IMG/VR virus record: IMGVR_UViG_3300035698_034612
Location: 1 to 22,186 of that record
Length of the DNA stretch: 22,186 nt
Source: a virus
Strand: one strand, 5' to 3'
Numbering within the stretch: position 1 is the stretch's first letter; every line of letters starts with the position of its first letter. The position numbers were made by a program, and so were the translations under genes. Positions 2,378 to 21,204 of the stretch are shown here, piece after piece. The notes under the pieces were generated by a model. That model made no database searches. It was given only the letters and a program-made list of their open reading frames with translations, and was not told the DNA's origin.

Positions 2378-2807
2378 AGTTTTTACCATTGGTTTTACTA
2401 AGAAGAATGCTAAAACTTTCTTTGGGTTGTTAGAAACAAATAAAGTTAAAACACTAATCGATGTCAGACTTAACAATGTATCTCAACTTGCTGGGTTTGC
2501 TAAGAAAAATGATTTGGAGTACTTCTTAAACAAAATTCTTGGTATTAAATATATTCATCTACCAGAAATTGCTCCTACAAAAGATATTCTTGATGATTAC
2601 AAGAATAAACTAATTAGTTGGGAAGTATATAAGAAAAGGTATATAACTCTATTAGAAAAAAGAGTTGCTTACAAATCAATCGATATCAATATTCTTAGCT
2701 ATGCATGCTTCCTTTGTAGCGAACATACGGCTGATAATTGTCATAGACGTTTAGCTGTCGAATATCTTCAAAAGTATTATAAGAGGATATCTATAAAGCA
2801 TATTTAA
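2370..2807 (+). CDS. DUF488 family protein (second copy)
   Basis: This second, diverged DUF488 protein is 145 aa from the ATG at 2370. I prefer that start to the upstream in-frame ATG at 2340. A GGAAGGAG ribosome-binding site lies at 2356-2363, and the protein then opens directly with the family strand KVFTIGFT. It keeps the DVR motif (residues 31-33) and the C-x(7)-CHR segment (C116; C124-H125-R126). It lacks the SVPYSR part found in the first copy. Tandem, non-identical DUF488 genes suggest either a heteromeric complex or two related activities in the operon. The next gene begins 46 bp downstream. Confidence 0.85.
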   Translation: MIKVFTIGFTKKNAKTFFGLLETNKVKTLIDVRLNNVSQLAGFAKKNDLEYFLNKILGIKYIHLPEIAPTKDILDDYKNKLISWEVYKKRYITLLEKRVAYKSIDINILSYACFLCSEHTADNCHRRLAVEYLQKYYKRISIKHI

Positions 2808-4645: not shown

Positions 4646-6880
4646 CTATTTTTCTATTTTCATAACAAATTCACCAACAAGTCCCAATTCTGAGTACGCT
4701 TTTTTTGCTTCACTATCTATCCCATAAGAAGCAGCGCGATCTGCCATGTCCGGAGTCATTTGCCAGAAAGATCCTGAAGAAATCGGATTAGTTCCGAAAC
4801 CCTTTTGCGGATCCTCAATCAAGTCCGGAAGCTCGTTTGATTTGAGTCCAAGGACTTCAGCTTCTTCAGCATAGATCCCGCGCACCGTTGACCGACAAGA
4901 ATAATGAAGTGGTGGAATATTATTGTCCCAGAACTGATCACTGTAAGCTCTGATAATATTATTACGCTTGATACAGATTTCAGTCTGCCGGGAATCATCT
5001 ATCCCAAGAAACTCCAGGAACAATGGTTCGTTTACTTCAAAACTCATCATGCGACCGGTGTTATACGCAGTCTGGATATTTGTCCGGTAAACATTCTCCC
5101 AGTACCAGGGATCTTTACCAAATCCAGTTTTTTGCAATAATTCATCAGCTCCGAGCGATTCAATGAAATCAACCATACTCTTCCCCTCATCCAGGGCAGA
5201 GACTAAATAGGTTCTGGCTTTGTTTATCGCATCAATGGTGGTAAGCCTGGTGGAAGTAAATGCACGAAAGCGAAGCTGGGCAGAAAGTAAATCATACTCA
5301 TCCCGGCTTAAAGGAACTGCATTCCCTAATATTTCTATAGCTTTTGCAAATGTGAGATTCCCTTCATCAATAGAGAATTCTACATCGGCAAAATCTGAGG
5401 ATCCTGAAGGTGCTCCATGCTGCATACCAGAAAGTGCAGAAAGCATCAAAGATTCAAAGACTGCAGTACTCATCTCAAGGGGAAGAAGTTCCGGAACATA
5501 ATCCTGCTCCAGTAAGGATTCATCAGTCTTCAAAGCATTTAGGAAAATATCCAGGGAATTTTTTATATATTGCTGGGAGACTACTAATGATCGCCTGGCT
5601 ATGGTATCCAGGACTTTTGCGTTCTTCGTTTCCTTCTCTATGATTGACTTGTGGTTATTTGTGAAGTTTTTTTTTACACCCTCGGGGTCTGAGAAATCAT
5701 TTTTTCCATTTCCGGGGGTTATCTGGGGAACCGTTTGTGCAAAGACATCAGTTTCATCTTCAGGTTCGGGTAGCCGGTACCGGGAATAAAGTTTTGATTT
5801 TGAAATCGGGATACCTTTTTCTATGGCAGTAGCTACCATCTCCCATGAAGCATAGTCACCAGTGTCAATTTCCACTATAGGAACAACAGAACCTTCCCCA
5901 AAGTTCAGGATGATTATCATCTCCACTAATTCCTGTAACGTATAAGCTAAAGCCCTGGCATCATTTTCCACAAAGCCCTGCATGGTATCTGCATGCACTG
6001 ATCCAAGGGCGCGGGATCCAGCATCCGGATTATTAGTTGCTAGACTCTGTCCGGTTAATGCATAAGCAATTTGGACATCACAGGCTTGAATTAATACATC
6101 AAAATCCCGCAGCGCTCCGGACATTTCTATAGTCTTAATATCTTTTACATTAGCGAGAGATCCGCCTGAGCCCGATTCTATCTCTTGTAGGATTCCTGCA
6201 AGTGAATCAGCTCGTTCCTGAGTTTTGGTTGGATCCCCGCTATCTTCGAAGAGGGCAATGATTGAGGGCACTGAGAATTTCTCAGTTGCGGTTAACCAGA
6301 ACTGGAATCCGAGCTGCTTGAATTTATATGCCCAATAGGCTGATTTTAATATCGATACCCCATTGGGTTTATTATGGGTATCTCCTTCATGTCGGTGTAT
6401 GATCCATTTATAGTTTTGGTTTAATAGTCTTCTTCCGGAAGAGTCTGAGTAATAGAGATTCCCTTTGGTATCATAAGAGTAGTTGTTGATATTGTAGCCT
6501 TTGAGATAATCAATGAGCAAATATCCTTTCTCTCGTTTCCAGACCAACTCCTCTGGCCGGTGTCCATAGGTCAATGCTCCTGTTAGAAGCAGCCATCCCC
6601 ATTTACGCAGCTGCTTTACTTCCATGAACTCATCAGCAAATTTATCAATCTTGCTGTTTCCGGTTTTGTTTAAGAACACCGGCAGATTCATCGTGGCATT
6701 ACGCCGGGTATAAAAAAGGGATCCCACTCGACCATCGGTAAGCATCTCATCATAGAGACCGAGTCCCTCACCAGTACGCTGTACTACTTCATCCGGATTA
6801 GGCATATAGGAGATGAAGGAAGAAAAATCCTTGATAAACTCTACAGTAAGCTTTCCTTTTGTCGGTATATTTTCAGCCAT
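4646..6880 (-). CDS. Mu-like portal protein (gp29/DUF935) fused to MuF head protein
   Basis: This 744-aa product combines two Mu proteins. The first ~400 residues match the DUF935 portal: an early PNPDEVV segment, SLATNNPDAGSRALGSVH in the middle, then WEMVATAIEKGIPISKSKLY and LPEPEDETDVF. The portal ring is the channel through which DNA enters the head. A linker follows. Residues ~570-690 match the Mu gpF-like minor head domain (RTNIQTAYNTGR from 599, DDSRQTEIC at 627-635, PPLHYSCRS ending near C662). In Mu these are separate genes (29 and 30). The gene overlaps the terminase end by 8 bp. No virion protease or capsid gene follows on its 3' side; the next genes are the convergent AT-rich island. 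Confidence 0.92.
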   Translation of the reverse strand: MAENIPTKGKLTVEFIKDFSSFISYMPNPDEVVQRTGEGLGLYDEMLTDGRVGSLFYTRRNATMNLPVFLNKTGNSKIDKFADEFMEVKQLRKWGWLLLTGALTYGHRPEELVWKREKGYLLIDYLKGYNINNYSYDTKGNLYYSDSSGRRLLNQNYKWIIHRHEGDTHNKPNGVSILKSAYWAYKFKQLGFQFWLTATEKFSVPSIIALFEDSGDPTKTQERADSLAGILQEIESGSGGSLANVKDIKTIEMSGALRDFDVLIQACDVQIAYALTGQSLATNNPDAGSRALGSVHADTMQGFVENDARALAYTLQELVEMIIILNFGEGSVVPIVEIDTGDYASWEMVATAIEKGIPISKSKLYSRYRLPEPEDETDVFAQTVPQITPGNGKNDFSDPEGVKKNFTNNHKSIIEKETKNAKVLDTIARRSLVVSQQYIKNSLDIFLNALKTDESLLEQDYVPELLPLEMSTAVFESLMLSALSGMQHGAPSGSSDFADVEFSIDEGNLTFAKAIEILGNAVPLSRDEYDLLSAQLRFRAFTSTRLTTIDAINKARTYLVSALDEGKSMVDFIESLGADELLQKTGFGKDPWYWENVYRTNIQTAYNTGRMMSFEVNEPLFLEFLGIDDSRQTEICIKRNNIIRAYSDQFWDNNIPPLHYSCRSTVRGIYAEEAEVLGLKSNELPDLIEDPQKGFGTNPISSGSFWQMTPDMADRAASYGIDSEAKKAYSELGLVGEFVMKIEK

Positions 6881-8432
6881 TCATATATCTCCTCATCATC
6901 TGTTTTACATAATTACCACGTCGCTTTATCCCAGTTCCCCTGATAATCATATTGGTATTCACTGATATCAGTACCGCATAATAGCCTGCATCAAGCAGAC
7001 CATCATTTACCCCCGGGGTGGGAAAGCTGTACCACTGCTCCATCTCTGGTTCACTTTTAAAAGAATCCCGGTACCGCATGATTCCGGCTTCTACATAGGG
7101 TTGAATCTGCATAATACGTTTCTTCTTTGAAGTGGATCCGGGTTTGACACCAATACAGGGAAGATAGATTCCCCGTTCTGCTGCAGCCTCTAATATCCAT
7201 TTGCGATAGATCTTCTGAAAGGCAACTTCCTCAAAAGCAATCTGCTCAGGGTTATAGACTTCATACATGCTAAAAAGCTGATCCATAAGATCCTTAGCTG
7301 TCCCGTAGGGCTTATTCCACCAGTCGATGATGTCCCGGTATTTCTTGATCTTGTCATAAGCACAGACTGCTATTGCTGCATCATCAGAGCCTTCAGCATT
7401 CGGATCCACTCCGAAGGTGATCCGCCGGGTTGTTAAATCAATATCGTTGATATTAAACCAGGCAAACCAATTCTTCCGGAACATCTTATCTGCTGCAGAA
7501 ACTGATAGGGATAAATACTCAACTTGGTAAATATCAGATCCTACTTCCCGGCGTTTGAGTTCAAGGTCAGCCCTACTCCACCGTTCCGGCCAGATCGGGG
7601 TTCCATCTTCAAGTTGTGCAGAAAAACGTAAGGGGAGAAAGCCTTCGAGCTTTCCACTTACTGCTTCATATAACATCCGGGTGGCCGGGTCATTTTCATT
7701 GAAATGCGTATTTACAAAGATGATAAATGCATCCTTGCCTAAGTTCATAACCGTACGCCGGATCCACCGGTTTATCTTCTCACAAGTATCCAGGTTATCG
7801 GCTTCTTCGTCTTTTACAATGTCATCCAGGATTACGAGGTCTGGACGTGCCTCACGGAACCTCAGACCACGAGCAGATCCCCCTTTACTCCTAGCAGCAA
7901 TGGCCGTCCCATTTGAAAGTTCAATAAACTTTGCATCCCACCTACTCCCTTTGAGATCTCCGAAGTCTTCTAAGATAAGTTCATTCTCATCAAACTCACT
8001 TTTGATATTCTCCAGAAACAATTTTGCATCATCATCGTTGTTACCAAAAATTACGGTAAATTTGTTCTTCTTGAATAATGCCCTCCATAATGGATAGGCA
8101 AATGAGAACCGAACAGATTTAGCGTGATCTCTCGATTCTATATCGATGATTCCCCGGAGCTTCTCAATAGGAGAGAAATAGTTATGGAACATCTTTCTGG
8201 TATGCGTTTTAAGCCGCTCGATATCCTGCTGATTAACCGCACTTTTATTCACGATGTCATAAATGACTAAGTGATAGGCAGCCGGTTCACAGGAGAAGTA
8301 ATGCGGGAGATAGGTATTGCAGAAAAACTCAAAGTCCTTTTCAGCTTTATTAATACGATCCTGTTTACTTTGATCCTGAGTATCGTACTTGCTGATTAAC
8401 TCGCTGATAAGCGGGGTGTTCTTAGTATCCAT
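6873..8432 (-). CDS. Large terminase subunit (Mu gp28-like)
   Basis: This 519-aa packaging motor ATPase/nuclease pumps phage DNA into the prohead. The ATPase half has a degenerate Walker A, SRDHAKS (residues 100-106), as in Mu-type terminases. It also has a Walker B PDLVILDD (197-204) and a coupling motif FVNTHF (239-244). The RNase H-like nuclease half shows its acidic residues at D343 (TFGVDPNAEG), E401/E402 (AFEEVAF) and D477/D481 (NDGLLDAGY). Length is normal for the family. It starts at an ATG that overlaps the upstream gp27-like stop by one base (TAATG) and overlaps the portal gene by 8 bp, so expression is coupled in the late operon. Confidence 0.95.
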   Translation of the reverse strand: MDTKNTPLISELISKYDTQDQSKQDRINKAEKDFEFFCNTYLPHYFSCEPAAYHLVIYDIVNKSAVNQQDIERLKTHTRKMFHNYFSPIEKLRGIIDIESRDHAKSVRFSFAYPLWRALFKKNKFTVIFGNNDDDAKLFLENIKSEFDENELILEDFGDLKGSRWDAKFIELSNGTAIAARSKGGSARGLRFREARPDLVILDDIVKDEEADNLDTCEKINRWIRRTVMNLGKDAFIIFVNTHFNENDPATRMLYEAVSGKLEGFLPLRFSAQLEDGTPIWPERWSRADLELKRREVGSDIYQVEYLSLSVSAADKMFRKNWFAWFNINDIDLTTRRITFGVDPNAEGSDDAAIAVCAYDKIKKYRDIIDWWNKPYGTAKDLMDQLFSMYEVYNPEQIAFEEVAFQKIYRKWILEAAAERGIYLPCIGVKPGSTSKKKRIMQIQPYVEAGIMRYRDSFKSEPEMEQWYSFPTPGVNDGLLDAGYYAVLISVNTNMIIRGTGIKRRGNYVKQMMRRYMNG

Positions 8433-8956: not shown

Positions 8957-9255
8957 TACAGCCCCTCCTCAACGATCACCCCGGGGTCTGTGGCTACCCC
9001 GTCGGCAAGATTAACTCCCGGAGGAAGGATCTTATAAAATCTTACCTTCTTCTCCAGCTGGGCAGGATGTTTCCGGATTATACGGTCGATGTACTTACTA
9101 TCAACTAAATATTCCAGGGCTTTCCTGATATCAGAGGGTTCATAGAACTGGTATTTGATTTTGATAATAGATTCTTCTTCTACTTGTTCCGGATAGACTG
9201 CAGATAAAAATGCAAGAATGGATCCGCGTAATACCGGGCGTCTTGAATTGATCAT
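8956..9255 (-). CDS. Small late protein in the Mu gp26 position, winged-helix-like
   Basis: This 99-aa protein has a pattern of short helices and a strand pair suggesting a winged helix (SILAFLSAVYPEQVEEESI, then EPSDIRKALEYLVDSKYIDRIIRK). It ends in an acidic tail. It holds the position of Mu gp26, between a gp25-like and a gp27-like protein, where similar small helix-turn-helix proteins occur in related phages. Its ATG overlaps the stop of the gp25-like gene (4 bp). A role in packaging or head assembly is inferred from position only. Confidence 0.65.
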   Translation of the reverse strand: MINSRRPVLRGSILAFLSAVYPEQVEEESIIKIKYQFYEPSDIRKALEYLVDSKYIDRIIRKHPAQLEKKVRFYKILPPGVNLADGVATDPGVIVEEGL

Positions 9256-9623
9256 TTTGCTACCTCATTGTGTTTCTCGACATGGCGATCAATACGCTTT
9301 CGCAATTCGCCAACTTCATATTTCCAGCCACCAAGGGCTTCATACATATCCTCTTTTGATGCGAATCGTTGCTCAATATAGGAAATCCGTAAACTTTGAT
9401 CTGCAAGTAATTGTTCTAACCGTTCGTCTCGTTTATCTGATTTTAATTCCAAATCAAGTACTTTCTTAGAGAATAAGGTGCTTTGCTGGGTAATTGATTT
9501 GGTAAGGGATTTGACGGTAAACACCAGGATACCAATGCCAATTCCAATAGCCAGGATTAACACAAACAAGGTGAAAGTTGGACCAATTCCTCCGGCAATT
9601 CGCAGAATATCTGTTATGCTCAT
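9252..9623 (-). CDS. Mu gp25-like (DUF2730-like) membrane coiled-coil protein
   Basis: This 123-aa protein has one transmembrane helix (about residues 15-36, TFTLFVLILAIGIGIGILVF). A long charged coiled coil follows and ends ELRKRIDRHVEKHNEVAK. Size, topology and position before the gp26/gp27 genes match the DUF2730/gp25 protein of Mu-like phages, whose job is not well defined. Lysis or membrane-associated roles are possible. It begins one base after the stop of the spanin-like gene and overlaps the next gene by 4 bp. Family assignment is moderate because coiled-coil sequence is low in information. Confidence 0.65.
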   Translation of the reverse strand: MSITDILRIAGGIGPTFTLFVLILAIGIGIGILVFTVKSLTKSITQQSTLFSKKVLDLELKSDKRDERLEQLLADQSLRISYIEQRFASKEDMYEALGGWKYEVGELRKRIDRHVEKHNEVAK

Positions 9624-9624
9624 C

Positions 9625-10185
9625 CTACCCCCAAATTGCCAGTGCTATGACACCCAAAAGGAGTAACAGAGTTCCTCCATCATTGATTGCTTTTTCAAAC
9701 TGCATCCACTTGATTTCTTTCTGCAAAGAGGTAATCTCATCCTCCTGAGCCTGATCCCTTTTTTCGGTTTCGTCGACGTAGTTCTGCAAGGAGCTCTTCG
9801 TTTCGCTTTGCGAGTTCTCCAATTCGTTTATTGTCTGTGAGGCTTGACTCAACTCCTCCTTCGATTTCTCCTGCTGACTCAACGATGTTTTCACATCCTC
9901 CTTCAATGGATTCAATTCGTTCCAGAGCAGACTCACTTGATTCGATAGCTGAATCGAGCTGTTCTGCACCTGAATCAACGTGCTCTCCTGCTTCTCCTGC
10001 AAGATCGATATCGTCTGTGAGTTCATCACTAACTCGATCAGGATCTCCTCCGTGCTCATCGATTCCGGATCCGGAAGATCGTTTCCGGAAAGCCCTAACG
10101 GCAATAATGCACAACACAATAATAAGACTAATACCAATAAACCAAAGTATGATTTTACTCTGCATCTCACTTCACCCCTCCTCAT
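9625..10185 (-). CDS. Spanin-like protein with signal sequence, coiled coil and C-terminal TM
   Basis: This 186-aa protein (from ATG 10185) has a basic N-terminus and a hydrophobic segment (15-33) containing a double Cys (LLLCCALLPLG). A Gln/Ser/Glu-rich coiled coil spans about residues 45-160. The last 17 residues form a transmembrane helix (TLLLLLGVIALAIWG). Signal or lipoprotein-like N-terminus, periplasmic coil and C-terminal TM is the topology of unimolecular spanins, which fuse inner and outer membranes at lysis. The lipobox is not classical, so a plain signal peptide is possible. The ATG at 10185 has no ribosome-binding site. GTG at 10170 is 6 nt after AGGAGG and is a better start (181 aa). 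The whole 142-aa gene at 10165-9737 lies inside it in another frame. Confidence 0.7.
   Translation of the reverse strand: MRRGEVRCRVKSYFGLLVLVLLLCCALLPLGLSGNDLPDPESMSTEEILIELVMNSQTISILQEKQESTLIQVQNSSIQLSNQVSLLWNELNPLKEDVKTSLSQQEKSKEELSQASQTINELENSQSETKSSLQNYVDETEKRDQAQEDEITSLQKEIKWMQFEKAINDGGTLLLLLGVIALAIWG
9737..10165 (-). CDS. Nested inner-membrane spanin-like protein
   Basis: This 142-aa protein is encoded wholly inside the 186-aa gene in a different frame. It starts with an uncleaved-looking TM helix (residues 5-24, IILWFIGISLIIVLCIIAV) followed by RAFRKRSS. A Gly/Asp-rich linker and a heptad-like coil follow (about 66-131, with repeating Ile/Leu and Glu/Ser). It ends in a basic Arg/Lys tail. 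This is the layout expected for an i-spanin. An AGGAGGGG site ends 9 nt before its ATG, the best ribosome-binding site in the area. Both overlapping frames give coherent membrane/coiled-coil proteins, which random antiphase translation rarely does. Assignment as a spanin partner is inference. Confidence 0.6.
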   Translation of the reverse strand: MQSKIILWFIGISLIIVLCIIAVRAFRKRSSGSGIDEHGGDPDRVSDELTDDIDLAGEAGEHVDSGAEQLDSAIESSESALERIESIEGGCENIVESAGEIEGGVESSLTDNKRIGELAKRNEELLAELRRRNRKKGSGSGG

Positions 10186-10190
10186 GGGAA

Positions 10191-10220
10191 AGCTGCAGCA
10201 CAGTTTAATATGCTGCAGCT
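10191..10220. repeat. Perfect 10-bp hairpin before the spanin genes
   Basis: AGCTGCAGCA (10191-10200) and TGCTGCAGCT (10211-10220) are exact inverted repeats around a 10-nt loop. They lie 6 nt before ATG 10185 and just upstream of the AGGAGGGG site on the leftward transcript. There is no real T-tract. The hairpin may insulate or tune translation of the spanin pair, or mark an RNA processing site. A terminator is less likely because essential late genes lie downstream. Confidence 0.55.
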
Positions 10221-10247
10221 GATAATCTACCTGAACAAATCTTTTTC

Positions 10248-10595
10248 TTATGCAGAGCCGGGAAGTTCAGATCGGGTTTCACTTCTAGCAGTTGGTTTGA
10301 TATCAGAGGCAACTCCCTCTTCAGAGATAATCCCTCCGACCATTTCGCCAATGATATCCAGTGATGGGGTTTTTGCACCTTTGATAATGGATTTCCCAAA
10401 AAAGGCACCAATGATGGTAAAAGACAGGAACACAATTGCCTCAACCGGGATAATTCCGGCAGCTGGGGATTTAATGTGTCCAAGGTATGTCACCGCAACA
10501 AGTGTGATGACGATGAGAAAGAAGCAGGCGATTGCCCCTATCCAGGTGCGGGACCGGTATTTGTTATACCCTGATACAGTTACACTTTTTTTCAT
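10248..10595 (-). CDS. Holin-like two-TM membrane protein
   Basis: This 115-aa protein has two transmembrane helices (about residues 18-38 and 48-70), separated by a short loop (GHIKSPAAG). A ~45-residue hydrophilic tail carries mixed charges. Small size, two TMs and position first in the late operon, directly before the spanin-like genes, suggest a holin, which permeabilises the inner membrane to trigger lysis. I see no endolysin gene beside it; one would be expected elsewhere in the phage. A GGAGGAG site lies 6 nt before the ATG. No sequence family could be confirmed, so holin is a topology- and context-based call. Confidence 0.6.
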   Translation of the reverse strand: MKKSVTVSGYNKYRSRTWIGAIACFFLIVITLVAVTYLGHIKSPAAGIIPVEAIVFLSFTIIGAFFGKSIIKGAKTPSLDIIGEMVGGIISEEGVASDIKPTARSETRSELPGSA

Positions 10596-10711: not shown

Positions 10712-12037
10712 TTAAGTTCCTATTGGGTTGATAAAATCAATAAGCAAAGGGCTGCTACTGTTAATTATAACTTTCCTTGAAATAAATTCAATTAATTCAA
10801 TATCATAATATAATTGCCTTGTGGCATTTGCATAGGGAAGTAAAATATCAAAATCAGCACTTGATGATTTTGTATGAACTATTCTGCATCTGATTTCATA
10901 AATTCTTTGTGAAACCTCATTAACCAAATCAGCTTTTTTATTTTTTAAAGATATTTTCTGTTTTGAAATTTTATTACCTTCATTTTCTGAATAAAAACCA
11001 AGTCGCTCATAGTCAGCCTCAAAAAAATCTCGCAGTTCTGCATTGAATGTACAGGCTGAAATTGTAGCTTTCAATTGCTCATTTTCATTTCCAAAAGCAC
11101 CACCTCCACTCGATAATTTTATTGCAGTAATAATTTTTGATATATCGGAATCTTTGTTAGGATTAAATCTTGGATCTTTTATTATATTTTGAATTTTCTG
11201 TTTCGCAGCTTTTTTGGAATATGTAGGAAAGTAAAATTCAAGAGTTTGATAAAATGCTAAGAATTGAAATGTTGGCATGTTTTTTGATTCTTTAGCATAC
11301 CAATAGAGAGACATTGATTCTAAATCATAGGCATATTTGGATTCAGATATTTTAGCAGAATTGTCAATGAACCTATACTTTCTATTTTGTTTTTTTCTTT
11401 GCTCTCCAGAGGTCTTATCAATAGTTTGAAGATAAATAGGGATTTCAAAAGCTAAATCAATTTGAAAAAATATTGAATTTGCTATAATTTCCAACCCATC
11501 TCGTGATGCATCATGAGTTTTTATATCTATATTTTCTATCCTCAAAGTAATTGTTCTTCTTGAAAATCCTCTACCACCTTTAGATCTTTTCAATAAATTA
11601 AATTCTTTGGAACCATATCCAATTGAAAGTGTAAAATTATTTGACGAAGGTAAATCAATTTTACTAACTGTTTCTGTATCAGTCTCAACTAGATTATTAC
11701 CTTCTGTATAATTAGACTTATTCATCATTTCATCTAAGGTCTTAAGAAAATGCATACCATCAAAATCAGGGCTTTTAACTTCAGCTTCAATTACTTGATC
11801 TCTTTCTGACCATATTGCCTCATATCCATCAATAAATCGAAAATTTAAAAAATCTATATTCAAACAAGACTCAACACGGTCTTCAGTTAGTGCTAATCTG
11901 CAATCAAATACCTTGCGTCCAGCTGGTACTTTAAAAACAATCCTTGATACACTATCAGGATTTTCATCACCATGGATTTCATATTTAATATTGGCTTTAT
12001 CAAATTTTTCAATTAGCAAGTCTCGTTTCATGTTCAT
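10712..12037 (-). CDS. HEPN-motif protein, candidate RNase effector
   Basis: This 441-aa soluble protein is not in a family I can name with certainty. Near its C-terminus a helix carries IYEIRCRIVH (R383-x4-H388), an exact RxxxxH catalytic motif of HEPN ribonucleases. A Thr and an all-helical stretch with Tyr-rich ends (YDIELIEFISRKVI) follow, as in HEPN folds. The ~370 residues before it mix beta and alpha segments and could be a sensor part. A large N-terminal region plus C-terminal HEPN is the layout of anti-phage proteins such as ApeA, but I claim only similarity of layout. GAGGGG precedes two possible starts: ATG 12037 at short spacing and ATG 12031 at better spacing. It follows the 187-aa membrane protein gene by 56 bp and is AT-rich. 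Confidence 0.65.
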   Translation of the reverse strand: MNMKRDLLIEKFDKANIKYEIHGDENPDSVSRIVFKVPAGRKVFDCRLALTEDRVESCLNIDFLNFRFIDGYEAIWSERDQVIEAEVKSPDFDGMHFLKTLDEMMNKSNYTEGNNLVETDTETVSKIDLPSSNNFTLSIGYGSKEFNLLKRSKGGRGFSRRTITLRIENIDIKTHDASRDGLEIIANSIFFQIDLAFEIPIYLQTIDKTSGEQRKKQNRKYRFIDNSAKISESKYAYDLESMSLYWYAKESKNMPTFQFLAFYQTLEFYFPTYSKKAAKQKIQNIIKDPRFNPNKDSDISKIITAIKLSSGGGAFGNENEQLKATISACTFNAELRDFFEADYERLGFYSENEGNKISKQKISLKNKKADLVNEVSQRIYEIRCRIVHTKSSSADFDILLPYANATRQLYYDIELIEFISRKVIINSSSPLLIDFINPIGT

Positions 12038-12093
12038 TTTCCCCTCAATAATACTATTTTATAAACTCTCTTCTCTATATTCTTTCATCCGGC

Positions 12094-12657
12094 TTACATC
12101 AATATTTCATCAAGAGAAAATTCATTACCAATAACCTGACGAAACTCAACTAATTTTTTTCTAATCTTATTCAATTCATAGCTTGATTTCATTACTGATT
12201 GTTTAGATGGCAATTGGCATCTTTTTGAGAGTCCATCTTGTTCCATTATAATAATATTATGTTGGTTATCATCTATATCTGATTTTCCAGATATACTATT
12301 TAATAATAAATTTACACGCCTACTTTTATCTTCAACTAAAATAATTAGTGGATTCAATTTATTGTCAGCATACTTAATTAATTTTGTAATTCTTTCATCC
12401 ATTAAAGTTGAATTAACTCGTGTAATAACTATTTGCTGCTCCTTCAGTTTTATTTTAAGTGAATCTATATCTAAAGTATTTCCACTATTTGCATTTTCAA
12501 TAATTGTGAGAATTTCATCACCATTATCTACAACCGTCTCGAGATTCTCACATAATTCCATAAGAAATTTTGCAATTTTTTGGCGTGTAGTTGGCTGCAA
12601 TTTTGAAATTACTGGGATTATATTTACTATTAATGCGAAGATAGCTACCCAATTCAT
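12094..12657 (-). CDS. Membrane-anchored helical protein paired with the HEPN gene
   Basis: This 187-aa protein is unrecognised. A hydrophobic helix at residues 2-20 (NWVAIFALIVNIIPVIS) should anchor it in the inner membrane. The rest is predicted helical with several coiled-coil-like segments (around 35-110) and a basic linker near 110-120. AAGGAG lies 7 nt before the ATG. It is followed after 56 bp by the HEPN-motif gene in the same direction, so the two may act together, for example as membrane sensor or immunity partner and RNase. That pairing is inferred from spacing and shared AT-rich composition, not from homology. Confidence 0.6.
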   Translation of the reverse strand: MNWVAIFALIVNIIPVISKLQPTTRQKIAKFLMELCENLETVVDNGDEILTIIENANSGNTLDIDSLKIKLKEQQIVITRVNSTLMDERITKLIKYADNKLNPLIILVEDKSRRVNLLLNSISGKSDIDDNQHNIIIMEQDGLSKRCQLPSKQSVMKSSYELNKIRKKLVEFRQVIGNEFSLDEILM

Positions 12658-12807
12658 CTTATACTCCTTTATTCTTTTAACTGATGTTAAATCCAGTCAA
12701 AAGTGAGAAAAAAATCCGGTTATTTGATATTCCCAATTTCTTTTTCAATACTATCTTCTATAACATTTTCCGTATTTTCCTCAACTCATTATGAGGTTCG
12801 ATAAATC

Positions 12808-13875
12808 TTATTCTTCTTGCTCCTGGGGATAAGGGACTTGAGGTGCTGCAAACCATCCCCTAGATGAATTATTATGCGTTAGAATGGTAGATTTTTCTGT
12901 TGTATAAACAATCCCACCTCTATGTATAAATCCTCTTATTACTGATTTTCTTGGGTGGTCACTATCTTGGGGAGAGGTACAGACAAAAGCTTCAAATTTT
13001 CTACTTTTATCATACTCCGATTGAAGACGGCTGCCTAACCAAGTATCAAGAATCTCTGTTGATACATTGTGTCTTGATCCATGGTGGGGAATTTGGATAA
13101 TATCAATCCCGGGAAGAAACAACCCTGCAGAAGGAGCATATGCTGCAGCTTCTTTTAATGCTTCACGACCTGCATCTCCAGTTAATAATATTTTTCTATC
13201 ACAGAGTTTTGCGTATTGGATTATACTCATTTCATTTTCAGTACTGGTTCCGTTAGCTGAAAATATTTCTTCTCCCCATAGAGACCTAATAAATGAGAAT
13301 ATCTTTCTAACAGTTTTTCCTAAAGCAGTCGAAAAACTTTCTTCAAGCATTTTAATAGATTCTGGAGTTTTATCTGATTCAACTATTAAATCTAAATAAC
13401 GCGTTTTTGTTGGTGCTAATACTGTAAACTCTCCAATCTTTGCAGACTGAAAAGGTTCGCGTATCGGGATCCCTTTTTCTTCTGCAATTTTTTCCAATGC
13501 TACAATTGATGGGTAAATATCTTTTAGCCTAATTTTGAGATTATCAACATTTGTAAATCTACTGAATCTGTCAATTATTTCAGCTGCATATATCCAAGGT
13601 CTTAACATCCAGAGTTCTTCAACATTATAATATTCTAAAATCTTTTTTAAACCTCCAGTATGATCAGCATCAGGGTGGGTCACTATAACAGCATCTATTT
13701 TGCTTGGAGAATCATAGTATTGATTTATATGTTCAATTATATTTTCACCATTATCTTGAAAGCCACCATCGGTAATATGAATCTGAATTTTCTCATTTTT
13801 CTCATAACGTAAAGGAATTGCATCAGCACTTTTTTTTGACTGTGTTTTCAGAAAATCAATTTCAAAAAAATCCAT
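12808..13875 (-). CDS. ComEC-type metallo-beta-lactamase fold hydrolase
   Basis: This 355-aa protein has the metallo-beta-lactamase fold of the ComEC/Rec2 C-terminal type. Metal ligands are visible in HPDADHTGG (H67, D69, D71, H72), LLTGDAG (D234) and PHHGS (H264, H265). A further His lies in SDHPRKS (H307). The motif NEMSIIQ (214-220) matches the conserved ENEMS strand of this type. There is no signal peptide or TM, so it is cytoplasmic. Related enzymes cut phosphodiester bonds in nucleic acids or nucleotides; the substrate here is unknown. It starts 3 bp after the stop of the membrane protein gene upstream, preceded by AAAGGGGA, so the two are one translational unit. The 150 bp after it (12658-12807) hold no gene or clear signal. 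Confidence 0.85.
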   Translation of the reverse strand: MDFFEIDFLKTQSKKSADAIPLRYEKNEKIQIHITDGGFQDNGENIIEHINQYYDSPSKIDAVIVTHPDADHTGGLKKILEYYNVEELWMLRPWIYAAEIIDRFSRFTNVDNLKIRLKDIYPSIVALEKIAEEKGIPIREPFQSAKIGEFTVLAPTKTRYLDLIVESDKTPESIKMLEESFSTALGKTVRKIFSFIRSLWGEEIFSANGTSTENEMSIIQYAKLCDRKILLTGDAGREALKEAAAYAPSAGLFLPGIDIIQIPHHGSRHNVSTEILDTWLGSRLQSEYDKSRKFEAFVCTSPQDSDHPRKSVIRGFIHRGGIVYTTEKSTILTHNNSSRGWFAAPQVPYPQEQEE

Positions 13876-13878
13876 AAT

Positions 13879-14376
13879 TTAGTTATCCCCTTTATTTAAA
13901 TTTTCAACTCGCTCTTTTACATATTTAGTCTGTTTCCTGTATGATAAGAGGAATAAAATAAATAGAACTATGATAATGATAAGTGGGCTCCATTTTCTTA
14001 GCCAAAACAGATGGTTTAATAATTTTTCATAGCCAGGTAGTAAAAGCAATGCTAGGAACATTGTACAAATTGTTCGGTACATATTGTTTTCTTCTGATAG
14101 TATTTCGATTTTAAAATCCAATTTGCATGCTTTTAAAAAGTATTTAGTTTCTGCAAAGTGTAAAAACCTTACTGCTTTCAAAATAGGTTCAAGAATAATA
14201 GAACCTAATCTACTTATTATTAAACCAATAAAATAATATATAAAGATATTGAGAATTATATTTTCTTGATTAAATGAGAAATTTGTAATCTTTTCTGAAA
14301 TAGCAACAAACATAACACCCGGTAATAGATAGTTAAAAATGTTGTAAGAAGAAAGTTTCTCAAATAATTCCTTCAT
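13879..14376 (-). CDS. Multi-pass membrane protein partnered with the MBL hydrolase
   Basis: This 165-aa protein has three clear transmembrane helices (about residues 40-62, 101-120 and 129-146) plus a weaker N-terminal hydrophobic stretch (13-27) containing NYLLPG. It ends in a basic tail (YRKQTKYVKERVENLNKG). The NYLLPG start and ISRLGSIILEP segment resemble conserved small membrane proteins I associate with accessory islands; no function is established. A GGAG ribosome-binding site precedes the ATG. The MBL gene begins just after its stop, so the two probably form a two-component system with a membrane part and a hydrolase. Confidence 0.7.
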   Translation of the reverse strand: MKELFEKLSSYNIFNYLLPGVMFVAISEKITNFSFNQENIILNIFIYYFIGLIISRLGSIILEPILKAVRFLHFAETKYFLKACKLDFKIEILSEENNMYRTICTMFLALLLLPGYEKLLNHLFWLRKWSPLIIIIVLFILFLLSYRKQTKYVKERVENLNKGDN

Positions 14377-14418
14377 TATCGAATCTCCATTTTTTAATTC
14401 AGTAAAAAATAAACACGA

Positions 14419-14703
14419 CTATAACATAGCCCTTATTTTCTTCAACTCCGCATTCTCTGAAGAATCAAGCAACTCATGAAGTTTGGCAAGCGTTCTATGC
14501 TGCTGAATTTCAGAAAGATCGGGATTTTTATATTGTGTGATATAACTTAAAGCCAATAACTCTTCTAAAGGTCTATTTGTAGTGTCTGCTTTTTTCATTA
14601 ATCCGAGAAAATATTGTTCCTTTTCATTTAATTGAGAAAGCTGTGTATTAAGTACAGATTTACTATTTTTGGGGTTGTTTTTATCATTGTTGACAATCTT
14701 CAA
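14419..14703 (-). CDS. Small helical protein of unknown function
   Basis: This 94-aa ORF begins at TTG 14703, with AAGGAA about 7 nt upstream; no in-frame ATG is better placed. The product has a polar Asn/Lys-rich N-terminus (residues 1-20) and then several helices (about 25-94) rich in Leu and Glu. It has no TM segment and no motif I can name. It lies between a terminator-containing spacer and the membrane/MBL pair, in the same direction. It could be a small regulator or the first gene of that operon. The coding call rests on codon-like regularity and context. Confidence 0.5.
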   Translation of the reverse strand: MKIVNNDKNNPKNSKSVLNTQLSQLNEKEQYFLGLMKKADTTNRPLEELLALSYITQYKNPDLSEIQQHRTLAKLHELLDSSENAELKKIRAML

Positions 14704-14740
14704 ATAGAGTTCCTTGAATCATCACTTCAGAAGAACTATT

Positions 14741-14831
14741 TACTCATTAACATCTTAATACAAACTATATCATGAATATTACAATGTAGGAAAGAAAAAA
14801 GCGACATACAGCTGCTTTCTTCCGTATGGTT
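14741..14831 (-). repeat. Spacer repeat copy A (terminator plus promoter-like end)
   Basis: About 90 bp are repeated at 15676-15763 with roughly 75-80% identity by eye. Shared blocks include tactcattaacat, actatatcatgaata, agaaaaaag and gacatacagc. This copy follows the 265-aa gene on its 3' side and precedes the 94-aa gene. It contains a leftward intrinsic terminator (14792-14818), followed by AT-rich sequence with a TATAGT -10-like hexamer (14769-14764). Confidence 0.75.
14792..14818 (-). terminator. Intrinsic terminator after the 265-aa gene
   Basis: On the minus strand AAAGCAGC, loop TGTAT and GTCGCTTT form an 8-bp stem with one A-C mismatch and one G-T pair. A run of Ts continuing to TTTTTTC follows. 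It lies 23 bp after the stop of the 265-aa gene and should end its transcript before the next cargo gene. Confidence 0.65.
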
Positions 14832-14840
14832 AAGAACTTT

Positions 14841-15638
14841 CTAACTCGATCCTAATTTAGTTTTGATCGTAGATATTGCCTTTGCTGCTTTTTTTATTTT
14901 CTCAGATTTTTTAAATTCTTCAAGACGCTCATCTAAAATAATCTCAATTCCAACTCTTAGAGGATCAAAATAATCTAAGCATTGCTGTTCAGATAGTTCG
15001 TGTAATCCGAGACTTAGAACTGAATAAATCTCTTTGTTAGCCACAAGAAAGTCAGGTAGATAATGTGATAATAAACCAATTTTCTCAACCATTCTTGTCC
15101 CCCGAAAGTCTTCTTCAGAAATATCCTTAGCCTCCAGAGCTCTTAAATACGCTTCTTGAATCAAATATTCAAAAATTCTTCTCAGATAAACAAAAGACCC
15201 AATACCAATACCATTAGCAGCTAAACCAATTGCTCTTGTGAATTCTTTTGCCTTTTCATGAAGTATTACCTTATCATCATATTGCTTTATTTCTTGAAGA
15301 TGGAAATCGGCTAATGATGGTAATTGTCCGAATTTTATTATGATTTTAGAATTCTTATTCCAAAGAATCGAGCATATACACTCTAATCCAGTTCTTTTGC
15401 AGCAATACTTTATTTCATGAAAACCACTTCTTAGCAAAAAACAATCAGTTCTAAAATCGATAAGATCAGAAGTTATCGAATAAGTTGTATCAATTTTAGA
15501 TTCTGGATTATATCCATCGAAGCCTCGACTCTCATAAGATCTAAATAAATAAGTTAATTCTTTTGAATCCTTTATCTCAATTTTTATTTTTTTATAAAGG
15601 GGTGTATTGAAAATAAATTCTTCTAATGTAAAACTCAT
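14841..15638 (-). CDS. Unknown cargo protein in a moron-like cassette
   Basis: This 265-aa soluble protein has no function I can name. The first ~120 residues look mixed beta/alpha and include several Cys (residues 66-88: CFLL, CCKRTGLECICS). The C-terminal half is helical, with AIGLAANGIGIGSFVYLRRIFEYLI, then YSVLSLGLHELSEQQCLDYF. These blocks look like a conserved hypothetical family I have seen but cannot name. The tail is basic (KKSEKIKKAAKAISTIKTK). I looked for an RxxxxH HEPN motif and found none. The gene is flanked on both sides by the repeated spacer that holds a terminator and promoter-like sequence, so it forms a self-contained transcription unit, as phage morons do. Confidence 0.65.
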   Translation of the reverse strand: MSFTLEEFIFNTPLYKKIKIEIKDSKELTYLFRSYESRGFDGYNPESKIDTTYSITSDLIDFRTDCFLLRSGFHEIKYCCKRTGLECICSILWNKNSKIIIKFGQLPSLADFHLQEIKQYDDKVILHEKAKEFTRAIGLAANGIGIGSFVYLRRIFEYLIQEAYLRALEAKDISEEDFRGTRMVEKIGLLSHYLPDFLVANKEIYSVLSLGLHELSEQQCLDYFDPLRVGIEIILDERLEEFKKSEKIKKAAKAISTIKTKLGSS

Positions 15639-15675
15639 AATAATCCTACCTAATTTGCAATAATATTGATCTGTA

Positions 15676-15763
15676 TACTCATTAACATATTTAGTAAAAC
15701 TATATCATGAATACTATATTGGAGAAAAGAAAAAAGTGACATACAGCCGCTTTCTCCCGTGAG
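15676..15763 (-). repeat. Spacer repeat copy B
   Basis: This second copy of the ~90-bp spacer lies after the repressor gene and before the 265-aa gene. It has the same order as copy A: leftward terminator hairpin (15725-15753), then AT-rich sequence with TATAGT (15704-15699) and the terminal block matching tactcattaacat. The two copies are direct repeats about 935 bp apart, bracketing exactly one gene. Confidence 0.75.
15725..15753 (-). terminator. Intrinsic terminator after the repressor gene
   Basis: On the minus strand AAAGCGGC, loop TGTAT and GTCACTTT form an 8-bp stem (one C-A mismatch, one G-T pair), followed by TTTCTTTT. Position downstream of the repressor stop (15831) indicates that it ends the repressor transcript. 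Confidence 0.6.
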
Positions 15764-15830
15764 TTTGAGATTTCTTTTATTTGATATACTCTACTTAACA
15801 ATTTTAACAGGTTATAAACTGTGTTTACAG

Positions 15831-16220
15831 TTACAACCGACCCGAGCCACCCTGATCAGTACTCCCATGCTGATCGGGGTTTTTTTGAATGCCTGGTGGA
15901 GCAGATTTTAACAATGCTGCTTCTTTTGCCAGAATAATTAAATCATAAGCACTTACAGATTTAAGCAACAATAAATCATTATAAGTGACCATACTGCTTC
16001 CTTCAACTTCAATTACATCACCAACCCCCTTGAATAACCAATTTGGATTTACATGCAAATCAATAATCAAGGCTTGAATAAATTCCGTTTTGGGATTTTT
16101 TGATTTTCCATGTTCTAACTCTGAAATATAAGGTTGTCGAACCTTAAGGATTTTGGCTAGTTCAACAGATTTTAAATCAGTTGCTTGCTTAATCTCAGAT
16201 ATGACTTTTATCCAATCCAT
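15831..16220 (-). CDS. CI-type phage repressor (XRE helix-turn-helix)
   Basis: This 129-aa DNA-binding protein has a clear XRE helix-turn-helix (residues 18-39, VELAKILKVRQPYISELEHGK). It is expected to keep the phage lysogenic by blocking the early promoter. The central part has a PNWLFKGVGD segment typical of phage repressors of this size. There is no LexA/CI-type peptidase domain, so induction must work differently from lambda CI. GGGAG precedes the ATG. It is transcribed away from the early operon, and the 143-bp gap holds palindromic operators. Its last ~20 codons (NPDQHGSTDQGGSGRL) overlap a strong rightward terminator and read like translated terminator DNA, so the C-terminus may be dispensable. 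An imperfect hairpin (15810-15838) overlaps the stop codon. Confidence 0.85.
   Translation of the reverse strand: MDWIKVISEIKQATDLKSVELAKILKVRQPYISELEHGKSKNPKTEFIQALIIDLHVNPNWLFKGVGDVIEVEGSSMVTYNDLLLLKSVSAYDLIILAKEAALLKSAPPGIQKNPDQHGSTDQGGSGRL
15850..15886 (+). terminator. Strong rightward terminator inside the repressor 3' end
   Basis: CCCTGATCAG (15850-15859), a 10-nt loop and CTGATCGGGG (15870-15879) form a 10-bp stem with one T-G pair, followed directly by seven Ts (15880-15886). It would stop plus-strand transcription coming from the left, antisense to the cargo and repressor genes. It is not a terminator for the repressor itself. Confidence 0.75.
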
Positions 16221-16232
16221 CTAAGCTCCCTT

Positions 16233-16258
16233 ATAAGTATCGATATTTCGATACTTAT
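16233..16258. promoter_or_regulatory. Repressor operator O1 (11-bp inverted repeat)
   Basis: ATAAGTATCGA (16233-16243) and TCGATACTTAT (16248-16258) are perfect inverted repeats around TATT. The site lies between the repressor start (16220) and the TTGACA of the early promoter. That fits a dimer-binding operator, probably used for repressor autoregulation. Confidence 0.7.
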
Positions 16259-16260
16259 TA

Positions 16261-16289
16261 TTGACAAATTTGTTATACCGATATACTAT
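16261..16289 (+). promoter_or_regulatory. Early promoter candidate
   Basis: A consensus -35 TTGACA (16261-16266) is followed by weak -10 options: TACTAT at 17-bp spacing (16284-16289) or TATACT at 15 bp (16282-16287). The promoter is sandwiched between palindromes O1 and O2, as expected for the repressed lytic promoter driving the rightward early operon. Confidence 0.55.
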
Positions 16290-16314
16290 CGATATATCGA
16301 TGTAGACATATCGA
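16288..16314. promoter_or_regulatory. Repressor operator O2 and extra half-site
   Basis: ATCGATATATCGAT (16288-16301) is a perfect 14-bp palindrome sharing the ATCGAT core with O1. A further TATCGA half-site lies at 16309-16314. They overlap the presumed start of early transcription, so binding here should block it. Confidence 0.6.
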
Positions 16315-16363
16315 CAGTATACGACTGAAAATATCAGCGCACAAGAGGAGAATACAGAGTTTT

Positions 16364-17864: not shown

Positions 17865-18182
17865 ATGAGTGAACACTATGAAATGCTGACTATGGGAGTA
17901 AGCCTGGATTCTCTTAACGGTCGTCACCATGAAACACACCAGCGCAGACAGAAAAATGGACTTGATGAGATCGATGAAAAGATCATTGCTGCCATGCCTG
18001 AATATCCGGCTGAAATCACCTTACAAAAAATTGAAGAAGCGACTGGGATAAACGCTGAATATGTCAAATCCCGTTTGCTCTACCGAACACTCTGTATGAA
18101 CTATCCGGTATGTGATCTCGGAAGAAATCGATGGACTCTCGTGACAAAAGAATCACTTGAGTATGAGGAGGAAATCAGATGA
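17865..18182 (+). CDS. Small early protein, winged-helix-like
   Basis: This 105-aa protein begins at ATG 17865, with GGAG about 6 nt upstream. Residues ~35-95 suggest a winged helix (DEKIIAAMPEYPAEITLQKIEEATGINAEYVKSRL, then a short strand with RNRWTLV). The first 30 residues are polar. It overlaps the transposase gene by 4 bp (ATGA), so it is translationally coupled to it and may help control or assist transposition. I recognise no named family. Confidence 0.6.
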   Translation: MSEHYEMLTMGVSLDSLNGRHHETHQRRQKNGLDEIDEKIIAAMPEYPAEITLQKIEEATGINAEYVKSRLLYRTLCMNYPVCDLGRNRWTLVTKESLEYEEEIR

Positions 18183-20308
18183 TCTATTTGAAAACCGCTG
18201 AGGTAGCAGCTCTACTAGGGGTAACACCGAGAAGCGTGCAACAAAAGATCCAGTCAAACCAATGGCCTTCACAGAAAGTTGGACGGGGTTATAGTATCCC
18301 CTTATCAGCCCTGCCTGAAGATGCACAAATTACGTATCTCAAAGAACATCCAGATGTAACATTAACTACGAGAGAAATTAAAGAACTGACCACCGGGGCA
18401 CAACTTGCTGCCTCTTCCCGCACTATTACCGTAGGACTAAGTACCAGTCCAAAAACGGAAAAGCAAAAGAGAAAAATAGCTATCTGGCAGATGATGCAAA
18501 ACAAGCCAGTAAACTATAAAAAGACTGATTGGACTGAAACTGTAGCATCCATGTACTCAACCTCTATGCAATCAGTCTACAGAATTTGTACCGAAATTGA
18601 CGAGCATGGATTATCTGGAATAACCACACCGGTTAAGAAGCTCTCAACATGGAATGAGAATGCCGTCCAATGGCTCCAGGGCTATTACCTGAAAGCTATT
18701 AAAGAAGTGGGAGACTGCACCAAGTTATCAGCGTACAGAGCACTCTTAATAGAAGCTGAAAACCATGGATGGAAAACAGGTAGCAGATCCTCAGCATATG
18801 ATCATCTAAAAGCCCTGAACCCTCTCCTTGAATCCTTTGCCCGCGGGGGGAACAGAGAACTTGATAATCACTTCTATATCCTGCGGGATCTTGATGCCCT
18901 TCGACCCATGCAGATAATAGTCGGTGACCAGCATCGATTTGACTGGTGGGTTACTGATGAGAACGGGAAGATGATCCGACCAGAATGTTATCTCTGGATA
19001 GATATGGCCACTAGAATCCCCTACGGCATTGCCTTTGACAAGAAATACAACTCTTCAACGGTAAAAATGGCACTCTATATGGGTATGAGACGATTCGGCA
19101 GGTTTGAATGTTCTTATAACGATAATGGCCGCCCGGAACTTTCTAAAGCCATGCACGAGATCATCTCAGATATACAAGCTTATGGTATGAATAATGCCGA
19201 TATTTCTGATCTCTATAAATCCGATGAAGGTTTCATTGTCACTGATGATAATGACCAGATAGTATCGATGGCAGCAAACCCTGAAGATTGGAAAAAGCAG
19301 AACCGGCGTATCTTTGCCAAAGTCAAAAATGCGAAAGCAAAACCGATTGAACGGTTCTTTCGAACCTTTGAACAGATCCTCAATGACATGGCGCTCCCGG
19401 GAAAAATAAAGAACCTCAGGTCAACAGCAGCAGAGGAAGAGGAAGCTTCAAAACGGCTAATTAGCCAGGAGAAAAAAGGCTATCTCCTCACCCATGAAGA
19501 GTTCATTGTAAAGGCCATACAAGCGTTAGAAACCTATGAGAATCGTCCACATGCCTCATTAGGTATGAGTCCGAAAGATAAACTCATGGAGAAGTTCCAT
19601 AAGGGCTGGAAACCGACTTTTATCAATGAAACTGAATGTGATTTTATCTTCCTCTCCCGTATCCGGAGAAAGGTAGCAAAGGGTCGAGTGTTAATTGAAA
19701 GTATCTCCTATATTGGGGATGAGGTAACTACCAGCGATGATGGAATGATAAACACTTCAATTGGGATCCACCACCTGGAAGGACAGTCAGTAGAGATCAG
19801 GTATAACCCCTACGATCTGGACAAAGCCTTTGTGGTTGCCCCAGGTGGATCCATCCGCCCCCTCTATAAATCAAAAGTCTATGAAATGCTCAATGAAGAT
19901 CATATCAATGAAGCCATGTCCTGGAAAAAACGACAAATGAAAGCAGTACGGGATGCCTATAAACACATGACCGAAAGTATCCCGGGATTAGTGATTTCAT
20001 CCAGTGCAAAGAAGAAAATTACACAAGCAAAAACAGATCAAAAATCAAAAGAACCTGTGATTACACAGAAAGAACTGCAGAAAGCAGTTGAGGATCGAAA
20101 AGAAGCTTCTGTAAACAATGTCTATAAGATGCGACCGGCAGCCTGGGGGTCCCAGGCTGATCGCTATAAATGGTGTCTGGATAGTATTATCCAGGGCTAC
20201 AGTCTCAGTGCTCCGGATTCTGATTTCACACAATCATATGAAAAATTTATGAGTGAAGAGGATCAGCGGTACTGGGAAACTTACAAAACAATGGGAGGAA
20301 TCGTATGA
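18179..20308 (+). CDS. MuA-like DDE transposase
   Basis: This 709-aa transposase should cut and join the phage ends for integration and replicative transposition. The N-terminus (residues 1-60) has a MuA-type DNA-binding helix-turn-helix (LKTAEVAALLGVTPRSVQQKI), with a further end-binding region up to ~215. The catalytic core carries D250 (IIVGDQH), D315 (YNDNGRPE) and E391 (AKPIERFF), matching Mu D269, D336 and E392. The C-terminal beta-barrel and ATPase-contacting tail follow (about 500-709). Length is slightly over Mu MuA (663 aa). It overlaps both neighbours by 4 bp, and the MuB-like ATPase follows directly. Ends recognised by this enzyme are not visible in the window. Confidence 0.95.
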   Translation: MIYLKTAEVAALLGVTPRSVQQKIQSNQWPSQKVGRGYSIPLSALPEDAQITYLKEHPDVTLTTREIKELTTGAQLAASSRTITVGLSTSPKTEKQKRKIAIWQMMQNKPVNYKKTDWTETVASMYSTSMQSVYRICTEIDEHGLSGITTPVKKLSTWNENAVQWLQGYYLKAIKEVGDCTKLSAYRALLIEAENHGWKTGSRSSAYDHLKALNPLLESFARGGNRELDNHFYILRDLDALRPMQIIVGDQHRFDWWVTDENGKMIRPECYLWIDMATRIPYGIAFDKKYNSSTVKMALYMGMRRFGRFECSYNDNGRPELSKAMHEIISDIQAYGMNNADISDLYKSDEGFIVTDDNDQIVSMAANPEDWKKQNRRIFAKVKNAKAKPIERFFRTFEQILNDMALPGKIKNLRSTAAEEEEASKRLISQEKKGYLLTHEEFIVKAIQALETYENRPHASLGMSPKDKLMEKFHKGWKPTFINETECDFIFLSRIRRKVAKGRVLIESISYIGDEVTTSDDGMINTSIGIHHLEGQSVEIRYNPYDLDKAFVVAPGGSIRPLYKSKVYEMLNEDHINEAMSWKKRQMKAVRDAYKHMTESIPGLVISSSAKKKITQAKTDQKSKEPVITQKELQKAVEDRKEASVNNVYKMRPAAWGSQADRYKWCLDSIIQGYSLSAPDSDFTQSYEKFMSEEDQRYWETYKTMGGIV

Positions 20309-21204
20309 CAAGAAGTAGTAAACTCGCTGCCGTCCTGGAACAGTCCGGGATGAGTCAATCAGAGGCTGCGAGAATCGCTGGAGTAGATAAATCTATGATC
20401 AGTAGAGTTATCGCCAAAAACTACCAGGGATGGGAACAGAAAGAAACAGAAATCATTGAGGCACTAACTGATGCCGGCGTGCAAATCCAGTATGATCTTT
20501 TGCGAAGATTCAGAGTAGATCATACCACATTTATCAGCACACCGAATGTGAAAGAGTTCGATGATTTGGCAAATGATCTGCTGGAGAACCCGAACCTCAC
20601 CTCCTCCATCGGTCTGGTAAAAGGTACTGCCGGCAGGGGGAAAACTGCAGCTGCAAAACACTTTATCTCCACGAATCGAGACAGCGTGTATGTTCTGTAT
20701 GTAGATGGCTATTCACACAGCATGCTTGCCCGTCAAATCGCCTATGAACTTACGGGAATAAAGAACCACACATTTGAAAAGAACCTTGAGCTTATCCGGG
20801 AAGCAACCCGGATGCTCAGGAGAATGGTAATCATTGATGAAGCAGACAAGATGCCCGGGCGTCTCATAGAAATGCTTCGAGGAATGAATGAACGCTGCGC
20901 TCTTCCACTGCTGTTAGTAGGGGAAGAGATGCTGTATTCACGGATGTCTGAAGAACCCAGACGTTTAAGCAGAGTAAGAAAACCTATCGTCAACTTCGGG
21001 AAAGTTTCGAAGGTAGATATCGCACTTTTTTATGAACAGGCCATCGGTATATCTATCACCAAAAATCCAGAAGTCTGTTCTGAACTCCTGCTTCGCTCAC
21101 GCGGAGATTTCCGCCTGGTAGTAAGTGATGCTATGGCTATTTGTAAAGTCCTGAACTCTTCAGGGATCGGCACTGTCAACATGGTGGTTATAGATAAAAT
21201 ATGA
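20305..21204 (+). CDS. MuB-like transposition ATPase
   Basis: This 299-aa AAA+ ATPase should bind target DNA, bring it to the transposase and give target immunity. An N-terminal helix-turn-helix (residues 15-36, MSQSEAARIAGVDKSMISRVI) is followed by a Walker A, GTAGRGKT (107-114). The Walker B is MVIIDEAD (174-181), and a sensor-type Arg-rich segment (RRLSRVRKP) lies near 220. Size and the HTH-plus-ATPase order match MuB. The ATG overlaps the transposase stop (ATGA), and its own stop overlaps the next ATG the same way. Confidence 0.93.
   Translation: MTRSSKLAAVLEQSGMSQSEAARIAGVDKSMISRVIAKNYQGWEQKETEIIEALTDAGVQIQYDLLRRFRVDHTTFISTPNVKEFDDLANDLLENPNLTSSIGLVKGTAGRGKTAAAKHFISTNRDSVYVLYVDGYSHSMLARQIAYELTGIKNHTFEKNLELIREATRMLRRMVIIDEADKMPGRLIEMLRGMNERCALPLLLVGEEMLYSRMSEEPRRLSRVRKPIVNFGKVSKVDIALFYEQAIGISITKNPEVCSELLLRSRGDFRLVVSDAMAICKVLNSSGIGTVNMVVIDKI

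Follow-up and report, generated by a model that had tools for sequence, protein, structure and literature searches.

A repeated intergenic spacer with promoter-like and terminator-like signals precedes cargo genes beside the repressor-like gene of a Mu-like phage

Phage morons are described as promoter–gene–terminator units inserted between phage genes (PMC4378225, PMC2920897), and there is precedent for accessory prophage genes that carry their own promoter or adjoin the repressor (PMC7067206). For Pseudomonas Mu-like phages, the available text of PMC4378225 reports no common sequence around accessory regions and calls the mechanism of accessory-gene acquisition mysterious. Intergenic repeats upstream of genes are known from other viruses. 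The halovirus HF2, an archaeal virus, carries homologous repeats upstream of viral genes in classes of 58 and 29 bp (seven and two copies), which are conserved in relatives and for which promoter activity has been measured (PMC8707807). The SAS/ESAS elements of Cluster K mycobacteriophages, consisting of a 13-bp motif and 17-bp inverted repeats, occur many times per genome upstream of the starts of genes of different families (PMC3203893). Candidate defence genes occupy one variable locus in P2-like phages and P4-like satellites, where hotspots are defined by many alleles per site (PMC9122126).

The locus described here has something in common with each of these systems. As in morons, foreign-looking AT-rich genes are accompanied by promoter-like and terminator-like signals, here beside a repressor-like gene; however, shared spacers are no part of the moron definition, whereas here the same control element occurs twice, heading each unit. 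As in HF2 and the Cluster K phages, homologous copies lie upstream of different genes, here two copies at equal distance from two unrelated start codons. In contrast to the shorter HF2 classes, the two copies here are ~100 bp long and include a hairpin and a predicted promoter; a hairpin followed by a U tract is not described for SAS/ESAS in the available part of that report. The locus also resembles the P2/P4 hotspots in carrying candidate defence genes, although only one allele is known. We found no report of a repeated terminator–promoter spacer at phage cargo in the open-licence papers covered by the literature search.

The stretch analysed (the window) comprises the 22,186 bases of a virus record, which is a fragment. 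Plus-strand early genes lie in its right half, among them those for a Mu-type transposase (18179-20308; PF02914 and Mu-transpos_C) and for an AAA transposition protein (20305-21204; phrog_296). Minus-strand late genes lie in its left half, among them those for the large terminase subunit (6873-8432) and for a fused portal/head protein (4646-6880). Read from right to left, the middle zone consists of a 129-aa HTH repressor-like gene (15831-16220, minus strand) followed by AT-rich ORFs (10712-15638). BcepMu-like phages show the same leftward order, with replication and regulation followed by head genes, in the available text of PMC2920897. No family match was found for the small ORFs at 9252-10595, which might be the lysis genes, including a 186-aa ORF at 9625-10185. 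This ORF overlaps a 142-aa ORF (9737-10165) in a different frame, each has a hydrophobic stretch near its start, and the nesting resembles that of Rz/Rz1 lysis pairs. At the extreme edge of the record, an IS4 family transposase (3-1268; NF049925, 363 bits; GC 0.48) lies beside a second AT-rich cargo block (1407-2807, plus strand) with the PADLOC candidate defence genes PDC-M45A, B and C. The PDC-M45A gene covers only positions 105-223 of the 230 in its model and begins 139 bases past the IS4-type transposase ORF, and it is therefore probably truncated at its 5' end.

The two spacers were initially described as ~90-bp direct repeats, one following the repressor and the other the 265-aa gene. 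Both points are confirmed, since the spacers align without gaps over 118 nt at 77% identity (14733-14850 and 15668-15785; blastn, 80% over 110 nt) and are preceded, respectively, by the 265-aa gene (14841-15638) and by the repressor-like gene. Within the spacer cores (copy 1, 14733..14835; copy 2, 15668..15770; both read on the minus strand), 83 of 103 positions are identical, and the differences comprise 9 transitions and 11 transversions. The core alignment scores 53, compared with a maximum of 13.5 among 200 dinucleotide shuffles, indicating that the repeat is not due to chance. No other direct-repeat family in the window exceeds 32 nt, and an nhmmer model built from both copies matches just those two there. 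Spacer GC content is 0.30 and 0.32. In copy 1, similarity sets in ~5 bases beyond the 265-aa gene's stop codon; towards the next start codon it fades, in either copy, ~30 bases ahead. Because the repeat ends short of both downstream coding regions, the spacer is better seen as a control element than as a duplicated gene. The spacers do flank the 265-aa gene, as first proposed, but this is not the only cargo gene, since AT-rich cargo also extends beyond copy 1 (10712-14703).

The TATAGT hexamer noted in the preliminary description is present on the minus strand of both spacers (14764-14769 and 15699-15704), preceded by the TGn of an extended -10 (TGATATAGT), which is contained in an invariant 17-nt block (14762..14778 and 15697..15713). 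A second invariant block of 13 nt (ATGTTAATGAGTA; 14741..14753 and 15676..15688) lies a few nucleotides inside the predicted leader. From the end of TATAGT to the start codon (TTG at 14703 for a 94-aa ORF, ATG at 15638 for the 265-aa gene), the distance is 61 nt in both copies, even though the last ~30 nt are unlike, and a purine-rich stretch lies upstream of both start codons (AGGTAGGA; AAGGAA). This equal spacing suggests that each spacer heads a cargo unit and does not merely follow a gene; what the spacers precede is at least as telling as what they follow. The extended -10 motif taken alone is weak evidence, since 40 such sequences with at most one mismatch occur in the window (17 on the plus strand and 23 on the minus strand) and neither spacer has a clear -35.

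A cluster of TATCGA/TCGATA sites (16238-16315) covers the early promoter region, where a promoter-like TTGACA/TACTAT pair is found (16261-16289). These sites are likely the repressor operators. No TATCGA or TCGATA is present in either spacer, so the cargo promoters, if real, should work in the prophage.

The spacers had also been credited with a leftward intrinsic terminator. A hairpin with a U tract is indeed present on the minus strand of both copies (copy 1, 14791..14824; copy 2, 15726..15759), where it is terminator-like for the transcripts of the 265-aa gene and the repressor-like gene, respectively. The loop is UGUAU, and the 3' arm continues into the U tract. The two hairpins differ at 3 of 34 nt, and two of these differences are in the inner stem, where an A-C mismatch in copy 1 is G-C in copy 2 and a C-A mismatch in copy 2 is C-G in copy 1. 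Over 46 nt, the predicted folding energy is -12.3 kcal/mol for copy 1 (z -3.4; matched by 1/200 shuffles) and -11.6 kcal/mol for copy 2 (z -2.4; matched by 4/200), whereas folds of 75-76 nt are not outstanding (17/200 and 38/200 shuffles as good). A simple consensus terminator scan listed neither hairpin. Given this absence and the one stem mismatch, intrinsic termination is plausible, although not clean. A separate terminator-like hairpin on the plus strand (15849-15880) is strong, with 13 pairs and T6; it sits within the 3' end of the repressor ORF, facing the early region, and to its left the cargo zone shows no apparent plus-strand gene.

Cargo genes are expected to differ in composition from the phage backbone. 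GC3 is 0.17-0.32 for the ORFs left of the repressor, compared with 0.36-0.59 for the backbone, and the repressor-like gene is intermediate (0.27). All of these cargo ORFs are on the minus strand. Downstream of copy 2 lies the 265-aa gene (14841..15638; phrog_25239-like; GC3 0.207). The first gene after copy 1 is the 94-aa ORF (14419..14703), for which family searches gave no match, followed by a 165-aa gene (13879..14376; PADLOC 1.6e-63) and a 355-aa MBL-fold gene (12808..13875; PADLOC 6.8e-159; Pfam PF00753) that are assigned to the candidate defence families PDC-M48A and PDC-M48B, respectively. Further left are two AT-rich ORFs, one of 187 aa (12094..12657), for which no convincing family was found, and one of 441 aa (10712..12037), with weak matches to MauJ and DzbB.

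Relatives of the 265-aa protein were found in two viral contigs (48%), on one Pelagovum plasmid (38%) and in 3 of 398 genomes of a one-phylum sample. Around the genes in the two viral contigs, no repeats of at least 25 nt were detected and no spacer was found by nhmmer. Related phages carrying the same gene with unrelated spacers were to count against the preliminary description; such a situation is seen here in these distant relatives only. In one of the three genomes, at the locus that we call L118, a distant relative (E 1.3e-10) is an ORF adjoining an integron integrase (TIGR02249, 466 bits), a setting in which integron cassettes may carry members of this gene family. The same region (L118:3248-7638) also contains an OLD/HEC-04-like ATPase gene (6184-7638). 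In another of the three the relative stands alone, beside ORFs that we take to encode ribosomal proteins. No PDB sequence match to the 265-aa protein was found, and its predicted structure, with a mean pLDDT of 46.6 from a two-row alignment, was too poor for a structure search. Rfam returned one line only, at chance level. Two moron traits are thus observed, namely deviant base composition and relatives of a cargo gene in more than one kind of element. Together with the hairpin and the extended -10, these support the moron-like layout that had been proposed.

If the spacer were a general feature of related phages, further copies would be expected elsewhere. A blastn search of phages and plasmids with the spacer gave no match. 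A longer query returned 22 phage records, of which the best 5 match 59 query bases (E 0.4), and E. coli genomes yielded only a 34-base piece of the spacer (11 of 5426 genomes; best E 0.1). Three spacer patterns gave 0, 0 and 1 matches in viral contigs; the single match was rejected, as nhmmer found no spacer there at E <=1 and no window protein matched at 1e-4. One pattern matched five stretches in genome contigs (L005-L009). Three of these (L005, L008 and L009) fall in open frames of 765-1386 codons, the stretches in L006 and L007 contain a hairpin with the loop and stem of the spacer, and the flanks of all five are unlike the spacer, so they were taken as chance matches or convergent terminators. 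A version of the spacer hairpin with every stem position paired, AAGCGGCTGTATGTCGCTTTTT, occurs at L006:3935-3956 and L007:1704-1725, in two unrelated genomes and apparently between genes; a 322-codon frame also crosses the L007 site. With the three window pieces and these five stretches set aside from 94 loci, nhmmer found the spacer in 0 of 86, as well as in 0 of 9 later loci, and 22 further genomes gave no convincing copy.

Close kin of the phage were likewise not found among the genomes and viral contigs searched with the transposase and TerL. Transposase searches of 295, 398, 398, 198 and 22 genomes (partly overlapping sets) gave matches in 0, 11, 20, 1 and 1, respectively, the strongest at E 3.5e-29 and 29% identity. 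TerL relatives in viral contigs reach at most 28%, and scans of viral contigs with the transposase or PDC-M48B as single proteins found no relative. Since exact patterns are weak for diverged copies and the collections may omit near records, the absence of further spacer copies says little about close kin.

Taken together, these observations make it probable that a duplicated terminator–promoter–leader heads separate cargo units of a Mu-like phage, giving expression in the prophage. The spacers would then be old copies of one transcription-control element, in which the hairpin stops or attenuates the transcript of the preceding gene and the extended -10 promoter, with its short leader, starts a new one. 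Copy 2 would drive the 265-aa gene, and copy 1 the 94-aa ORF and the PDC-M48 pair. Cargo beside the repressor of a transposable phage could in this way be transcribed from an otherwise silent prophage, from promoters that lack the apparent operators and with each unit insulated from its neighbour. We infer promoter activity, termination and prophage expression from motifs and their positions, and the second copy presumably arose when a cargo unit was added.

The preliminary description went further and proposed that the duplicated spacers let homologous recombination gain, lose or swap single cargo units, and that the site may be a general cargo-loading slot. The spacers are direct, they flank one AT-rich gene, and the repeat ends at an equivalent position ahead of each gene; moreover, lambda Red is reported to give high recombination yields between genes that are 22% apart (PMC2327257). 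However, the longest identical run is 17 nt, shorter than the minimum quoted for pairing by RecA (31-34 bp) or Red-beta (23-27) (PMC3945230, available part), and frequent exchange should keep the copies alike, whereas they differ by 19%. The early genes of the window, itself only a fragment, included no recognisable phage recombinase, and no other cargo with this spacer turned up in the collections searched. Recombination between the spacers is thus not supported and seems unlikely. There is no evidence for a general slot, as the collections gave no convincing further copy, although no close relative of the phage was found in them either. Divergence of 19%, differences without significant clustering and the lack of a third copy in the window would also suit a relic, with the second copy left behind by an earlier insertion or tandem duplication and now without a function of its own. 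Against this, both copies retain the hairpin, the -10 and the start-codon distance, and we regard this account as quite improbable. Equally doubtful is a dedicated docking element, by which cargo would join at a fixed point and arrive insulated and prophage-expressed, each gain adding a copy so that the copies record insertions.

A different possibility is that a regulator encoded by the cargo or the host recognises the invariant 17- and 13-nt blocks as half-sites, so that both units are switched together and are not constitutive. The blocks amount to 30 mismatch-free positions in the region of the -10 and the predicted start of the transcript, the motif TAyTCATkA is found in the two spacers only, once per orientation in each, and in mycobacteriophages the ESAS that precede gene starts form imperfect inverted repeats (PMC3203893). 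Yet the inverted repeat (7/9) is reached by 13% of shuffles, and no DNA-binding family was recognised in the 94-aa or 265-aa proteins. Random redistribution of the 20 mismatches across the 103 positions gave an identical run of at least 17 in 35% of trials (p 0.35) and equalled the four longest runs in 12% (p 0.12), so that mismatch clustering is not significant. A Fisher's test on the blocks (p 2e-5) was rejected as circular, the blocks having been chosen from the same data. Since the unbiased shuffle is non-significant and two copies are too few, selection on the blocks lacks support, and joint regulation through them is improbable. Site-specific recombination, with the spacers serving as recombinase sites, attC-like or otherwise, and the 265-aa gene as a cassette, would fit the distant relative next to an integron integrase. 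Integron attC sites have RYYYAAC ... GTTRRRY core sites and self-complementary ends. No such core pair is present in the spacers, matches to the core within 14651-15850 are confined to two overlapping ones at 15793-15799, which is not part of the repeats, the repeat ends are not complementary, and no integron-type integrase was recognised in the window. The missing core sites and non-complementary ends speak against an integron attC cassette, which was rejected, and any site-specific system of this kind is very improbable. A MITE was also rejected, as terminal inverted repeats are absent (best end match, 44% and 39%).

Thus, the spacers are most likely an ordinary means of switching passenger genes on. 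A control element that heads cargo units and is shared between them follows the moron principle, and this ordinary reading is sufficient. The finding bears on the acquisition and insulation of passenger genes by temperate phages. It is one case with two copies at present; one control element per cargo unit would allow past insertions to be located by sequence search and would help to uncover new defence genes.
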